Assembly (NCBI GenBank): GCA_013154175.1
Contig: JAADCZ010000162.1
Span: forward strand, 1 to 39,372
Direction: 5' to 3'
Source: Thermodesulfobacteriota bacterium
GTDB lineage: Bacteria; Desulfobacterota; Dissulfuribacteria; Dissulfuribacterales; QOAL01
DNA: 39,372 nt
Positions 2,608-26,375 of this stretch are shown here, piece by piece. Each line of letters begins with the position of its first letter. Within the stretch, counting starts at the first letter, position 1. Both the position numbers and the translations under genes were made by a program. The notes below the pieces were generated by a model that searched no databases, was not told the origin of the DNA, and saw nothing but the letters and a program-made list of their open reading frames with translations.

Positions 2608-2684
2608 CGGGACGTGGCGCAGTCTGGAAGCGCACCTGAATGGGGTTCAGGGGGTCGGAGGTTCAAATCCTCTCGTCCCGACCA
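2608..2684 (+). tRNA. tRNA-Pro (anticodon GGG), CCA encoded
   Basis: Acceptor CGGGACG/CGTCCCG, anticodon arm CCTGA-ATGGGGT-TCAGG, T arm GGAGG-TTCAAAT-CCTCT, 3' ACCA; full cloverleaf by eye. Confidence 0.96.
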
Positions 2685-20307: not shown

Positions 20308-21243
20308 ATGAGTGCTAAGATGAACAACAACAATAACAACAACGACAAACTACTTCCGTGGCAGAGGCCCAAGAGAGAGGATGAAGATCCCAAGGCAAGC
20401 GAACTCCTCAAACGCATCATGGAGGACCCTAGTTATCGCCTTGCTGAGGAGGATACAGATTTTATCAAGTCTCCCAGGGCAAGAGGGATAAGGCTTCAGC
20501 TCGACTATCTCAAGGTTGAACTCAAGCTGCAGGAGCTGGGTGTAGAGCACACCATAGTCGTCTTTGGAAGTGCCAGGATAGTGGAGCGGAAGACGGCCCT
20601 TAAGAAGCTCGAGGCCATCCAGAAGAAGTTGCGTAGCGCAGGTGAATCCAGAGAGTTGCTGAAACGGCTGGCAATAGCCGAAAAGATGGTTGAAAAAAGC
20701 ATATATTACGACGACGCCAGGGAGTTTGGCAGACTCGTTGGCAAAAGTGGTAGGGGGCCAGACGACTGCCGCATAATACTCATGACCGGTGGTGGCCCTG
20801 GAATAATGGAGGCCGCGAACAGGGGCGCCTTTGACGTTGGGGCAAAGTCCATTGGTCTTAATATCCAGCTTCCCCACGAGCAGTTTCCAAACCCCTATAT
20901 AACCCCTGGATTGTGTTTTCAGTTCCACTATTTTGCAATCAGGAAGTTGCACTTTCTCAATAGGGCCATGGCCTTGGTGGTCTATCCTGGGGGGTTTGGA
21001 ACGCTGGATGAGCTTTTCGAAACCCTGACCCTTGTCCAGACCCACAAACAGGAACCAATGCCCATAGTCATGGTGGGCAAGAAATTTTGGAACCGACTCA
21101 TAGACTTTGACTTCCTTGTGGAGGAAGGCACCATTGCCGAACGGGATCTGGATATATTTTCAATGGCAGACAGCGCCGAAGAGGCATGGAATATCATACT
21201 GGATTGGTATAAAGACAGGCAAAGGCCGTTATTCCACGTCTAG
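20308..21243 (+). CDS. LOG family / TIGR00730-like Rossmann-fold protein with extended N-terminus
   Basis: GGGPGIMEAANRGAFDVGAKSIGLNI and PGGFGTLDELFETLTL motifs; second in-frame ATG at 20320. Confidence 0.88.
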   Translation: MSAKMNNNNNNNDKLLPWQRPKREDEDPKASELLKRIMEDPSYRLAEEDTDFIKSPRARGIRLQLDYLKVELKLQELGVEHTIVVFGSARIVERKTALKKLEAIQKKLRSAGESRELLKRLAIAEKMVEKSIYYDDAREFGRLVGKSGRGPDDCRIILMTGGGPGIMEAANRGAFDVGAKSIGLNIQLPHEQFPNPYITPGLCFQFHYFAIRKLHFLNRAMALVVYPGGFGTLDELFETLTLVQTHKQEPMPIVMVGKKFWNRLIDFDFLVEEGTIAERDLDIFSMADSAEEAWNIILDWYKDRQRPLFHV

Positions 21244-21277: not shown

Positions 21278-22393
21278 TTAGTATTCGAGACTAAGATATA
21301 GCTCCTTTTGTGGCGGGGCAGGTGCAATCTGCGGGAAGCGGTTGTGAACCGAGTTGGCAATCAGGTAGTCAAGGTGGCCAATTGAGCGTGGGGCCCTTCC
21401 AAAAACATTTTGCCAAACATTGGGCCTTTCCATGCAAAGGTAGGTAAAACACTCATCTGCCCCTGCATCCCTTAATCTTTCGAGAAGGAACCTATACATC
21501 CCTTCGCGAAGGGGTCTTGGATACCTTAGCTTGTTGTCGTCTCCCAAGACCAGTTCAGCCGATGTTATTTTGGTGTTGGGGTAGTTGTTTTCAATCTTCT
21601 TTTTCATCTCCGGATTGAACCTGAGGCTTCCAATGGAGATCCATATTACACTTTTGGGGTTTATCCTATTGAATATTGCCTCTACAAGCTTCTCATATGC
21701 CCTTTGCCACCCCTTGAAAAATATCATAGGGTCGAAATGAAGACCAATGGGGTAGCCTGCCCTGGCAACTTGTTCCATGGCGCCAATGCGTTTTCCCAAG
21801 GGGGCCGTACCTATTTCCTCCCGTTTTATCACCTCCTGGGGGTTGACTGTCCAGGAAACAACGCATCTTCCTCCATGGTCCACATCCAGGAGCGGGGTGA
21901 CTTGGTCCGATTTCGTTCGAAGTTTCAATATGCAGTTGTCCAGGCTGGCAAATTCCATGACGAGCCTTGCAGCCATCTCATTGAGTGGATTCACCCCAAT
22001 GCTGTCTCCTAGCTCCCACGTGCCTATTCTGAAGAGGCGCCAGGGTTGTTCACTGGTTTTTTCCCTGATCTCCTCAATTATGGCCCTGGTGTCTGCCACT
22101 ACAGAAAGGGTGGTGTCGGTTAAATAGTTTTGCAAGAAACAGTAGGTGCATTCAAAGGGGCAGTTGCTGATGTGGGAAACGACATGGGTGCTGCAACAAA
22201 TATAGCGAGGGTCCAAACTGGCGCAGAGATGAAACAGTTGCCCCCGTTTTGGCCCTATGAAGAGGTGGCGTTTGCCCTGTCTGTAATCGGACATCTTGGG
22301 GCTGGGGCCAACCCTGACATTTGATGCGGGCAAGAGTCTTTCCCAATTCGCCTGGTCAATTTCTGGATGTATGGTAACTGTTTTAAAGGTCAT
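21278..22393 (-). CDS. SPL (spore photoproduct lyase)-like radical SAM protein
   Basis: CPFECTYCFLQNYL (CxxxCxxC), SGxxGxRGxxG-less SPL-type core: VVSHISNCPFECTYCFLQ, WTVNPQEVIKREEIGTAPLGKRIGAMEQVARAGYPIGLHFDPMI. Confidence 0.85.
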   Translation of the reverse strand: MTFKTVTIHPEIDQANWERLLPASNVRVGPSPKMSDYRQGKRHLFIGPKRGQLFHLCASLDPRYICCSTHVVSHISNCPFECTYCFLQNYLTDTTLSVVADTRAIIEEIREKTSEQPWRLFRIGTWELGDSIGVNPLNEMAARLVMEFASLDNCILKLRTKSDQVTPLLDVDHGGRCVVSWTVNPQEVIKREEIGTAPLGKRIGAMEQVARAGYPIGLHFDPMIFFKGWQRAYEKLVEAIFNRINPKSVIWISIGSLRFNPEMKKKIENNYPNTKITSAELVLGDDNKLRYPRPLREGMYRFLLERLRDAGADECFTYLCMERPNVWQNVFGRAPRSIGHLDYLIANSVHNRFPQIAPAPPQKELYLSLEY

Positions 22394-22400
22394 GGGCAGC

Positions 22401-23387
22401 CTAGAAGCGAGAAAGTAGTTCCTTCACCCCTTTTTTGGTTTTTTCAGATGAAATTGCCTTTGAAAGGTTCCTTAGCTCTTCAATATCTGTAACAGTGGAG
22501 CTGATTTCAATACGGCGATTTTCAAGGGTTTCATCCCATTTGACATGAAATGGAGCAGAGCTGAAATACGTTTTATGAATCTTCTGAAGCTCCCTCTGAT
22601 AAGAAGTGAGCAGGGGATTTCTCAGCTTTCTGATGTAGCTACGAAACAATCTGGTGGTAGTTGCACGATCCTGCCCGGCCTCCAAGATTTCAATAATTTC
22701 CTTTCTCTGGAAAAACTCCTCCACAGACAGACCTTCCCGTTTCAATATGTCAGAAATTGCATCGCAAAGTTCTTGAAAGAGGCTTGCTGAAAGGGAAAGT
22801 TTGCCCTCGAGTTCAATGAGGCGTTCAAGCAACTGCCTGGGCTGATGGGTGAGGTTGATACAACGCTTGAGAGAGAAGTCCTTTTTGTGGCAAAGGGTCA
22901 GGACCTTGACAGGGAGGGTGGCAACCCGTCTGTATTTTTCCAACAATTTGGCGTGCCCCTGAAGCCCAAGGGCAGGCATGATCTCATTTAGAATCAGGTG
23001 GCTATCAAAGCCCCTTTCTGCAACGAAATCCAGAAACAGGGCAATCAGGGCACAGCTTGTTAGTTCATTGCCATGCTTCTGGAGAAGAAAGAGTAGAAGT
23101 TCCCTGGGGGACAAAGAAGTGTCCATAGCTGAAAGATGTGAGATGCCCCTGTCTCTGGCCCACATGAGCCTCTTGAATCCATCTATCAAGAGTGCAGGGC
23201 CGGAAGAATCCTGTTCATAGGCTACCAAAATGGGTTCAAGGATTCCACTCGTCTCCAGGCTTGAAAAGAGGTGTTCGGTTTTCCACAGCCCCAGTTCCCT
23301 GAGCTTTAGGGAAAAACCAAGATTAAGGTCCAGGGCTTCAGTCTCCACTATGGATATTTCTTTAGAAGGATGGGGTAATTGGTCCAT
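22401..23387 (-). CDS. ParB-like N-terminal domain protein
   Basis: GILEPILVAYEQDSSGPALLIDGFKRLMWARDRGISHL resembles the ParB N-terminal fold (GxKR in place of GERR), followed by an HTH-like helical region. Confidence 0.7.
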   Translation of the reverse strand: MDQLPHPSKEISIVETEALDLNLGFSLKLRELGLWKTEHLFSSLETSGILEPILVAYEQDSSGPALLIDGFKRLMWARDRGISHLSAMDTSLSPRELLLFLLQKHGNELTSCALIALFLDFVAERGFDSHLILNEIMPALGLQGHAKLLEKYRRVATLPVKVLTLCHKKDFSLKRCINLTHQPRQLLERLIELEGKLSLSASLFQELCDAISDILKREGLSVEEFFQRKEIIEILEAGQDRATTTRLFRSYIRKLRNPLLTSYQRELQKIHKTYFSSAPFHVKWDETLENRRIEISSTVTDIEELRNLSKAISSEKTKKGVKELLSRF

Positions 23388-24859
23388 GAAACGTGCCTTT
23401 TGGCCTCTAAATGCCCGAGTATTTCCTGGTAGATTGAGGCGTCATGTAGTTTTTGTCGCTTTTGGGCACCAGTATAAAGTATTAGAAGCCTTTGTTTAAG
23501 TGCAGCTGTGATGGATTTTATGAGCTCTGGGTTGTCCTCGTTCTCAAGGGCCTTCAACAGGGCTGCAACCCTGAATCTGTCCATTGCCGGATACCTGGCA
23601 GAGAGTTGGTCACTATGGCCCCCGTATCTTATCAGATCGGGCTCTGGGTTGAGCCCAACAGGCTTTTGCCTGGTTATCCTGAGCCACAACTCATAGTCTT
23701 CACAGGCCGGGAACCTTTCGTCAAAAGGGCCATAGGTGTCGAGGAGGAGGTCTTTTCTAAGGAGCACTGCGGAAGGGCTTATTGCACAAAGACCGAGGCT
23801 TTTTTCAAATATCCATCCTTCCTCCTTTTCATGGTGCTTGCAACGATTGACCCTCTTGCCATTTCGGATCCATATCTCTTCGCACTGTAGTATTTCAAAA
23901 AATGGATTGGCCTGTAAATAGGCCACCTGGTTGGAAAGCTTCCCTGGGGTCCACTCATCGTCCGAATCGAGAAGGGCGATCCAGTCACCTGTGGCCTTGC
24001 GTATGCCTTGGTTTCTGGCAAAGGAGACCCCCCTTCTTTCCTGAAGCCTTATGAGGTTGATTTTGTCCACGACGTCCCCTGGAAGCATGGAGGCGATGGG
24101 CGGCCTTGATGCGTCATCTATCACTATCACCTCTTTGGGTTTGTAGGTCTGGGCAAGGACAGAGCGGATACATCTTTCAAGACGTCTGTATCTGTTACGT
24201 ACCGGAATGATAACAGATATGGATGGCGATAGGTCCTTTGTGTCAATAAAGCCAAGGATGCCCTGAAGCAGGCTTCTAACCCTTTGAAGAGAATTTTTGT
24301 AATCCCTTCTTGTTGAATCTGAGCAGGTATCAGAGGCCACCTTCAGACATGAAAAGGGGATGTTTTTCCGGGAAAAGATCTGGTTTTGAAACCCAGCCTC
24401 CATATCGACAAGCGGGCCTATACAGGGCGAGTGTTTCAAAAGGGGTCGTTCAAGGCTTTCTATCCACGCCTTTTGGGGTTTCACTTCTTCAGGAAGAGGA
24501 AAGGGCAGCGGCAGATGGCACCTTAAGACCCCTTCAGGGGTTTTGGTTTCACTTGCCACGAATATGCCAGGACCATTGTGGCCAAAAGAGTAGGTTGGCG
24601 AGTTTAAACCACAGGTTCCAACATTTACCACTGCCAGTGGTGAAAGATACTCGCAAATGGCTTCGGCTGCCTGGCGGCTTTTTTCTTTGCCAACACCTGT
24701 AATTACAAAGACTATGCCCTCACGGCCCTTCCTGAATGAGCCACATATGCCACTTCTGAGGGCCTTTGTAGTCACTACTGGACAACCGCATTCCTTAATG
24801 AAAGAGATGGGGAGTTCGTCCCTTACAGCTGCAGTGATGACGAGTTTCGTCTGCGACAT
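23348..24859 (-). CDS. Nucleoside phosphorylase-like (MTAN/PNP superfamily) domain fused to a family 2 glycosyltransferase
   Basis: N-term: VVNVGTCGL, LVDMEAGFQNQIF, LKVASDTCSD; C-term: SVIIPVRNRYRRLERCIRSVLAQTYKPKEVIVIDDAS, ALLDSDDEWTPGKL, FDERFPACEDYELWLRI. ORF can extend to 24877. Confidence 0.85.
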   Translation of the reverse strand: MSQTKLVITAAVRDELPISFIKECGCPVVTTKALRSGICGSFRKGREGIVFVITGVGKEKSRQAAEAICEYLSPLAVVNVGTCGLNSPTYSFGHNGPGIFVASETKTPEGVLRCHLPLPFPLPEEVKPQKAWIESLERPLLKHSPCIGPLVDMEAGFQNQIFSRKNIPFSCLKVASDTCSDSTRRDYKNSLQRVRSLLQGILGFIDTKDLSPSISVIIPVRNRYRRLERCIRSVLAQTYKPKEVIVIDDASRPPIASMLPGDVVDKINLIRLQERRGVSFARNQGIRKATGDWIALLDSDDEWTPGKLSNQVAYLQANPFFEILQCEEIWIRNGKRVNRCKHHEKEEGWIFEKSLGLCAISPSAVLLRKDLLLDTYGPFDERFPACEDYELWLRITRQKPVGLNPEPDLIRYGGHSDQLSARYPAMDRFRVAALLKALENEDNPELIKSITAALKQRLLILYTGAQKRQKLHDASIYQEILGHLEAKRHVSWTNYPILLKKYP

Positions 24860-24906
24860 GGTTTGGTTTCTACACACCAGGGCCTAGGGTAAAGCGCGCC
24901 TGCACA

Positions 24907-25980
24907 TCATGGATCTGGCTCATAGGGAAGGCGCACAAAGAAGGTCGTGCCCACGCCCTCCTGGCTTTTGGCCCATATCCTTCCACCGTGTGACTCCACA
25001 ATCGCCCTGGCTGAGGCAAGGCCAAGACCGGTGCCTTCGGCCTTTTCCTTAGAGTTGCTGGCCCTGAAAAAGTATTCGAAGATGTGGGGAAGCTCTTCTT
25101 TGGGTATGCCGATGCCCTGGTCCTTGACTGAAAATATGAGCCATCCATCCTTGAGCTCTGCCCTAAGCTCGACTGTGCTTCCCTTTGGGGAGTACTTTAT
25201 GGCATTGTCCAGGAGATTGGTTATTACTCTTTTTATCTGGATTTGGTCCAAATAGACGGGTCTCTTAATGGCGCTGTCTATGTGCAGGGTTATTTTGATA
25301 TCGTTGGCCTGGGCCTTGGGGCCTATCTCCTCAATGGCTTCCTTGAGGAAGCTGTGTAAATCTGTGGCGATTTTTTCTACCTGCCTTCTGCCACTTTCAA
25401 TGCTAAGTAACTCCAAAAGGTTGTTGATGAGCAACTCGACCTGCATATTCTCCTTCAATATGAATTCGAGGTATTCGCGCTGCTTGTCGGTGATGGGCCC
25501 GGCCTTTCCAGCCAGTATCCTGTTGATGAGGCCTGCGGTAACACTGACTGGAGTCTTTATGTCGTGGGCAAAGATGGAGATGATATGATTTCTTAGGGTC
25601 TGTAGTCTTTCGTCATCGGCCCTGTCCCGAAAGATCTCTATTCCCACTTCAAGACGGCCAGAGGGGTCAAAGACCTTGGAGCTTGAAAAGCAAATTGGGA
25701 TTTCCTCACCAAATTTGTTTTTTATTGTGGCCTCTCGGGCAATGTATTCCTTTTTCTTTGCAGAGTCATCCTTGAGGGGGCAAAACTGTCCACACAGACT
25801 GCTACGCATCACCTGGGAGCAGGGCTTTCCTATAACTTCCTCCCGTTTCCAGCCAGTAAGCCTTTCTGCCGCCCTGTTAAATGCTATGATTTCAAGATTA
25901 TTATCCACTAGAAAACAGCCTGTCGGCATTCCTTCAAAGAGGATTTCAAACAATTTTCGTCTGCTGGGGAGTGTGACCAC
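24907..25980 (-). CDS. PAS domain sensor histidine kinase
   Basis: PAS with CSQVMRSSLCGQFCPLKDD; H-box IFAHDIKTPVSV; N-box NLLDNAIKYSP; G boxes DQGIGIPKEELPHIFEYF, GTGLGLASARAIVESHGG. Confidence 0.93.
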   Translation of the reverse strand: MVTLPSRRKLFEILFEGMPTGCFLVDNNLEIIAFNRAAERLTGWKREEVIGKPCSQVMRSSLCGQFCPLKDDSAKKKEYIAREATIKNKFGEEIPICFSSSKVFDPSGRLEVGIEIFRDRADDERLQTLRNHIISIFAHDIKTPVSVTAGLINRILAGKAGPITDKQREYLEFILKENMQVELLINNLLELLSIESGRRQVEKIATDLHSFLKEAIEEIGPKAQANDIKITLHIDSAIKRPVYLDQIQIKRVITNLLDNAIKYSPKGSTVELRAELKDGWLIFSVKDQGIGIPKEELPHIFEYFFRASNSKEKAEGTGLGLASARAIVESHGGRIWAKSQEGVGTTFFVRLPYEPDP

Positions 25981-26375
25981 TGCTATCTCCTATTTTAGAT
26001 GGGGGTAAAATAGTTCCAGACCCTGCCATTTTAAGAACTGACAGCAAAAATAAAGCCATTAGCCAGTTGACCCCTTGCCTCAAGAGGCGTACGCCTTTTT
26101 CTGGCCCCTGTGATCCGTAATGGTGAATGAGAGGTCACATTTGCCACAACTTTTAACTAAGAGCCATTGACCGCATGCAGTTTACCATGATCCTCGTGCT
26201 AGACGCGGCGGGTAGGGGCATCACAAGTTTGGTCGAAATGAAGACTTCACAATGGAAATTTAAGGAATAATATTCCAAAGTGCAAATATTTTCAATAAGA
26301 TAAAGCCCAGGGGCATCTATTCGGTGTTGTTACAAGATGTAATTGCCTAAAATGGAACGGGCTTTTAAGTTGTGT

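Follow-up and report, generated by a model that had tools for sequence, protein, structure and literature searches.

The 39,372-nucleotide contig JAADCZ010000162.1 of a Thermodesulfobacteriota bacterium (assembly GCA_013154175.1) carries a run of four minus-strand genes, three of which form an ancient conserved module: a fusion of a nucleosidase domain with a family 2 glycosyltransferase (NUC-GT2), an orphan ParB-like protein and a radical S-adenosylmethionine (SAM) enzyme resembling spore photoproduct lyase (SPL). The window, by which we mean this whole stretch of DNA, represents a single contig from a genome of 2.33 Mb that is 92% complete. The core of the run can be read, at a probability of roughly 45%, as a DNA-directed radical SAM module, which probably repairs or chemically marks DNA. 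The genes and domains of the module are located as follows:

23348-24877, minus strand: open reading frame of the NUC-GT2 fusion (Glycos_transf_2 and weak PNP_UDP_1 matches)
24248..24859, minus strand: MTAN-like nucleosidase domain, forming the N-terminal half of the protein (PNP_UDP_1)
23348..24241, minus strand: glycosyltransferase domain of family GT2, forming the C-terminal half of the protein (Glycos_transf_2, 9.2e-32)
22401..23387, minus strand: orphan ParB-like protein, 328 aa (AlphaFold2 model, hhalign, Foldseek)
21278..22393, minus strand: SPL-like radical SAM enzyme of 371 aa, closing the run (Pfam SPL, 7.5e-30)

The run opens with a histidine kinase gene, followed by the NUC-GT2, ParB-like and SPL-like genes in this order; 29 bp separate the first two, NUC-GT2 and the ParB-like gene overlap by 40 bp, and 7 bp lie between the ParB-like and SPL-like genes. 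An earlier interpretation made from the letters alone (the sequence-only reading) had given these coordinates correctly to the base and the spacings in agreement (the first as about 30 bp), and its domain calls hold, with matches to PAS, HisKA and HATPase, to Glycos_transf_2 (9e-32), weakly to PNP_UDP_1 and to SPL (7.5e-30). Its expectation of co-transcription is supported, a single transcription unit being likely for the four genes.

To place the run in a wider context, GTDB contigs were scanned with an SPL alignment, neighbouring genes were mapped by iterated profiles and further phylum samples were added. SPL loci were found in Desulfobacterota, Nitrospirota, Bdellovibrionota, Margulisbacteria, Marinimicrobia, SAR324, Binatia, Acidobacteria and others, and those of the clade of the window's enzyme (clade 1) were reduced to 119 non-redundant loci, picked mostly on SPL similarity alone, by dropping duplicates and loci without 1.2 kb of upstream sequence. 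Because a ParB-like gene lies directly upstream of SPL on the same strand within 400 bp at 81 of the 119 loci (at 71 with a spacing of -100 to +50 bp), the arrangement is not due to chance. The commonest spacing of the two genes, counted before redundancy removal, is -4 bp, which suggests translational coupling. GT2 was found upstream of SPL at 40 of the 119 loci and a nucleosidase at 23, including one AMP nucleosidase of a different family (L103) with a weak profile match, to which no weight is given. Within the window's phylum a second clade of SPL, distant from the first (L077, L080, L084, L085), is accompanied by a separate nucleosidase of 279-295 aa overlapping or abutting the SPL gene, so that the NUC-SPL link is present in two separate SPL clades; the nucleosidase of these loci has an additional C-terminal extension. 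Each of the three partners, ParB, GT and NUC, thus pairs with SPL independently. NUC and GT occur either fused or as separate genes. The divided NUC and GT of L102, with an ambiguous base at the end of the reading frame, are likely an assembly artefact and were not counted as separate genes, and apparent ParB-SPL or GT-SPL fusions in long frames of three genomes (G226, G147, G100) were rejected, their extra N-terminal stretches apparently being spurious readings of high-GC DNA and not homologous domains.

In genomes of the same genus the order MarC, histidine kinase, NUC-GT, ParB, SPL is found with flanks identical to those of the window, and in a second genus of the family (G011, G016, G018) the order MarC, (histidine kinase), NUC-GT, ParB, SPL lies at another genomic site. 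As the flanks differ among these blocks, NUC-GT, ParB and SPL are the part that stays together, and it is these three of the four genes whose joint conservation in relatives, on which the sequence-only reading had staked its proposal, was found. In one genome of the genus (G006) the ParB-like gene is divided between two contig ends (L070 and L071), the block probably being intact. The module is chromosomal and widespread: a mobile or phage origin was rejected, with no relatives in IMG/VR and distant SPL-like matches only in phage records and plasmids, and so was a role in anti-phage defence, the PADLOC models matching none of the three genes and giving only a weak generic match to the kinase.

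Several further neighbourhoods were noted, with gene names assigned by eye. At seven Marinimicrobia loci (L133-L137, L141, L142) the SPL-like gene follows an apparent dnaE, encoding DNA polymerase III alpha, by about 3 bp, which is a hint of a role on DNA. In several Desulfobacterota genomes purC (SAICAR synthase) lies directly upstream of ParB-SPL or beside ParB (L208, L213, L217, L230, L233, L067 and L075). An unlinked GT2 orthologue follows an ispH-rpsA-like gene at L237, L240, L243, L245, L253, L267, L268, L270 and L274, and in several of these cases a dus-like gene is close by.

Co-occurrence was examined in 141 Desulfobacterota genomes (G046-G186) with thresholds chosen to pick out the subfamilies. 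SPL, ParB-like and GT genes occur together in 59 of them and none of the three in 53; Fisher tests that ignore ancestry gave p values of 5e-21 for SPL/ParB, 1.6e-22 for SPL/GT and 3e-15 for ParB/GT, and GT2 orthologues are present in 72 of the 81 SPL-bearing genomes. Many genomes hold the trio on different contigs (G053 and G055, the latter with SPL on C64, ParB on C11 and GT on C49), and some exceptions look like assembly edges, as in G111, whose contig breaks off after ParB and GT, just where SPL would be expected. By this genome-wide association the GT2 belongs to the same function as SPL and ParB. Housekeeping neighbours with independent functions, whose conserved order and joint presence come from common vertical descent, could account for the Fisher values, uncorrected as they are, and for the unlinked GT and the ParB-SPL pairs beside ispH-rpsA/dus and purC in several lineages; such an explanation is nevertheless distinctly unlikely, for the gene order recurs in at least eight phyla and at differing sites inside one family, NUC and GT occur both fused and separate, and presences as well as joint absences are scattered over many families, one genome (G059) lacking all three genes while SPL and GT persist in G096 and G159 of the same genus.

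The SPL-like protein has the complete spore photoproduct lyase fold from end to end: its AlphaFold2 model has a pLDDT of 93, and Foldseek aligned it with 4FHC and its variants over up to 347 columns with TM scores of 0.72-0.80. Its score against NCBIfam TIGR04070 is 121 bits, far below the curated equivalog cut-off of 400 bits, and by its catalytic residues it is not a spore photoproduct lyase. The class assignment made in the sequence-only reading is therefore upheld for the fold and fails for the catalytic residues. Residues were mapped to PDB 4rh0 by pairwise alignment and profile search, with a chain numbering offset of 27 derived from the position of C140A. The relevant positions are:

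22139..22162, minus strand: radical SAM CxxxCxxC motif, C78/C82/C85 (CPFECTYC), invariant in two alignments and a per-locus table
22223..22225, minus strand: C57, at residue 76 of Gt SPL (a wild-type Ser that is replaced by Cys in 4rh0), candidate H-atom donor (pairwise and profile alignment to 4rh0)
22013..22015, minus strand: E127, where spore photoproduct lyase has its essential H-donor, Cys140 (Gt)/Cys141 (Bs) (alignment to 4rh0)
21434..21436, minus strand: C320 (LCME), one of the clade's extra invariant cysteines together with C66 and C67, possible second Fe-S site (53-sequence alignment)

In the alignment to 4rh0, besides E127 at Cys140 and C57 at residue 76, F86 falls at Tyr98 and Y84 at Tyr96. 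The Cys140 position is Glu in 138 of 140 clade-1 sequences, and the Tyr98 (Gt)/Tyr99 (Bs) position is Phe, Ile or Val in nearly all members. The C57 position is Cys in 140/140 sequences of clade 1; of the lower-scoring sequences, which are without C66 and C67, ten were readable and 9 of these have it too. The second SPL clade has Tyr at the Cys140 position and keeps C57, the other extra cysteines being missing. C66, C67 and C320, near-invariant in clade 1 (invariant columns in the 53-sequence alignment), may bind a second Fe-S cluster. The residue pattern is independent of ParB, as clade 1 contains SPLs that have a ParB and others that have none. In Bacillus subtilis (Bs) SPL, Cys141 is indispensable in vivo, and SAM regeneration is abolished by C141A as well as by Y99F, with a ratio of spore photoproduct (SP) repaired to 5'-deoxyadenosine of about 1 (PMC3742179).

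The structure 4rh0 is, according to its title, that of a C140A/S76C variant, and C57 sits at its engineered S76C position (4rh0/4rh1). Judged from these alignments, the family looks like a natural counterpart of the relocation of the cysteine from position 140 to 76. Activity was reportedly rescued in the C140A/S76C design through a rewired H-atom path. A true lyase for SP or a related dithymine lesion, with its donor cysteine moved to C57 and with ParB as a lesion-scanning accessory, would fit the fold, the coincidence of C57 with exactly this engineered residue and the retention of C57 in the second clade in spite of the loss of the other extra cysteines. We consider it quite improbable, in view of the curated SP-lyase score that is not reached, the lost Tyr98 relay and the GT that it leaves unexplained; SP, moreover, arises mainly in dry, SASP-bound DNA, which is not expected in these bacteria. 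The sequence-only reading reported no spore genes, for which no search was made in the present analysis, and its opinion that a spore-specific role of the SPL homologue is unlikely finds support here.

The ParB-like protein is a divergent full-length ParB. Pfam ParB does not match the protein of the window and matches 20 of 49 relatives; the family profile finds the N-domain and helix-turn-helix (HTH) of PDB Spo0J, ParB and Noc at 4e-19 (Spo0J) to 1e-14, and hhalign to genuine ParBs of relatives gives a probability of 98.5 from the N-domain through the HTH to the C-terminal domain. The C-terminal part alone matches weakly (probability 20, pairwise P 0.001). The AlphaFold2 model (pLDDT 94.7) retrieves ParB, Noc and KorB in Foldseek at about 1e-5 with low TM scores, because the positions of the domains relative to each other probably differ. 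The protein consists of an N-domain with a GxxR box, an HTH region and a C-terminal alpha-beta-beta-alpha domain, so that the earlier label of a ParB fold is right and yet too narrow. Among the boxes for cytidine triphosphate (CTP), box II (GERR) is kept as GFKR, and box III (ENxQR) is absent from the window protein and partly kept in some relatives; box III is often missing in the orphan ParB-fold proteins surveyed in 2025 (PMC12704722). A ParABS partition system is not indicated: the run has no parA, and the N-terminus lacks the LG(R/K)GL motif that binds ParA. On a different contig (C114) the same genome encodes a further protein that scores above the HTH_ParB cut-off. Matches of the ParB-like protein to MLKL, HECT and Trans_reg_C were weak and dismissed as spurious.

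In the fusion protein the nucleosidase N-terminus scores just below the PNP_UDP_1 cut-off (24.2 versus 25.1 bits) and far below that of PRK05584 (18.4 versus 169 bits). The MTAN catalytic residues E12, E174 and D197, in the numbering of E. coli MTAN, are kept in every family member covering them. The domain thus has an intact MTAN catalytic set; the reading from the letters alone had proposed a nucleoside-cleaving type. The GT2 domain scores 110.7 bits against a Glycos_transf_2 cut-off of 23.3 and has the Asp-rich DSDD motif. Translation of the fusion probably starts at the ATG at 24859 (MSQTKLVITAA) and not at the GTG at 24877.

Radical SAM enzyme, nucleosidase and GT2 are combined in a similar way in the hopanoid side-chain (HpnH-HpnG) and arsenosugar (ArsS, a nucleosidase and a TIGR04283 GT2) pathways, and the futalosine pathway (MqnE/MqnB) follows related logic. 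A small-molecule pathway is therefore conceivable, in which the radical SAM enzyme adds a 5'-deoxyadenosyl group to a metabolite or rearranges it, the nucleosidase removes adenine, the GT2 glycosylates the product and the ParB-like protein acts either as a regulator or as a kinase of the SerK/SbnI type; SbnI and SerK too have the ParB/Srx fold, GT is frequently unlinked to ParB, and weak NCBIfam matches to HpnG, futalosine hydrolase and an arsenosugar GT2 were obtained. We regard it as possible although unlikely, since the family matches of the genus-type nucleosidase all fall far under the curated cut-offs and the ParB-like protein, unlike SerK and SbnI, retains the HTH and C-terminal parts. 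The SPL fold, moreover, is retained end to end, and its only characterised members act, to our knowledge, on DNA.

For the preferred DNA-directed module, the SPL fold together with ParB argues for DNA targeting, and the nucleosidase for clearance of an adenine nucleoside. The conserved unit, the folds, the residue changes and the co-occurrence being established by computation, the following mechanism may be envisaged. A dimer of the orphan ParB-type protein would bind or clamp DNA and load the SPL-like enzyme encoded directly behind it, which would cleave SAM and take hydrogen from a base, probably thymine, that is damaged or serves as the target. The hydrogen would be returned via C57 and not via the classical Cys140, resulting in lesion reversal or base modification. 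As the SAM-regenerating relay of Cys140 and Tyr98 is missing, each turnover should release 5'-deoxyadenosine, which the MTAN-like nucleosidase would hydrolyse, relieving product inhibition. Nucleic-acid repair or modification, or nucleoside chemistry, as suggested by the sequence-only reading, is the best family of explanations.

Several points weigh against this mechanism. The ParB-like protein is without Box III and most conserved ParB residues, which makes clamp loading and the use of CTP or another nucleoside triphosphate less certain; about one third of the SPL loci have no adjacent ParB, so it is not strictly required at the locus, and at L198, L206 and L207 a GT overlaps SPL with no ParB. 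The three extra cysteines suggest chemistry beyond a simple return of the H-atom, many hosts come from dark habitats where UV is an unlikely driver, and lesion reversal would not be expected to involve a glycosyltransferase. The module might alternatively serve an oxygen-independent hypermodification of DNA bases in anaerobes, for which we see a low probability: the SPL-like enzyme, delivered by ParB and possibly using a second Fe-S cluster on C66, C67, C320 and C57, would functionalise thymine, and GT2 would glycosylate the base, in an anaerobic equivalent of base J synthesis, a pathway that begins with an O2-dependent step.

Two further features complete the run and its surroundings:

24907..25980, minus strand: PAS-HisKA-HATPase histidine kinase with a Cys-rich PAS domain, first gene of the run (domain matches)
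25981..26375, minus strand: intergenic leader, occupied in relatives by a MarC-family membrane gene, none in the window

Orthologues of the kinase (PAS, HisKA and HATPase domains) were detected at the locus in part of the window's genus and in one other genus only (L052, L053, L056, L059) and in no other phylum, and the kinase was undetected in several blocks of the family. It is a lineage-specific addition and not part of the core, so that the sensor link, which the sequence-only reading had made a core property, is not supported. A regulon for redox or membrane stress, in which kinase and MarC sense and the remaining genes respond, would agree with the Cys-rich PAS domain and with the order MarC-HK-NUC/GT-ParB-SPL of relatives (HK, histidine kinase); it is nonetheless very improbable, given that kinase and MarC are seen in the window's family only, that the run has no response regulator and that MarC had no match in the recovered own genome and left no remnant in the leader at 25981-26375. 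Promoter and terminator scans gave no clear excess over shuffled expectation; one sigma70-like site lies at 26295-26267 in the leader, in a scan that overall was not above chance. On the left the run is flanked by a convergent LOG-family gene (20308-21243, plus strand) and on the other side by a yraN-rnhB-rplS-trmD-rimM-rpsP-ffh string, named by eye. The sole Rfam match in the window is a tRNA gene at 2608-2681, plus strand.

Every component of the module comes from a known superfamily. A search of the openly licensed literature brought up neither their combination as a conserved module, nor the residue signature that marks the SPL clade, nor any paper joining SPL with ParB or with a nucleosidase and a glycosyltransferase. 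The SPL-like protein shares with spore photoproduct lyase (SplB; PF20903, TIGR04070, 4FHC) the full-length fold, CxxxCxxC and the Tyr96 equivalent Y84, and differs from it in the change of Cys140 to Glu and of Tyr98 to Phe, Ile or Val, in four other invariant cysteines (C57, C66, C67, C320) and in its ParB, GT2 and nucleosidase partners. With the orphan ParB-CTPase-fold proteins (Noc, KorB and others; PMC12704722) the ParB-like protein has in common the GxxR N-domain, the HTH, the C-terminal domain and a location away from parA, but it is without Box III and the LG(R/K)GL motif and has a dedicated radical SAM partner; the words 'radical' and 'photoproduct' do not occur in the main text of that survey, where such partners are not described. 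The nucleosidase domain resembles MTA/SAH nucleosidase (MTAN/Pfs), futalosine hydrolase and HpnG in its PNP_UDP_1 similarity and its E12, E174 and D197 equivalents, whereas it is short, divergent, fused to GT2 and under all curated cut-offs. From the hopanoid and arsenosugar pathways the module is set apart by a radical SAM enzyme of a different family, with the SPL fold, and by the ParB-like partner.

SPL-family radical SAM proteins of the non-spore kind are widespread, with a match in 242 of 395 sampled Desulfobacterota genomes, and no assigned function was found for them; the fixed partners and the moved donor cysteine make their function testable. If the DNA-directed reading is true, the ParB fold would have a role outside segregation, in DNA repair or modification.

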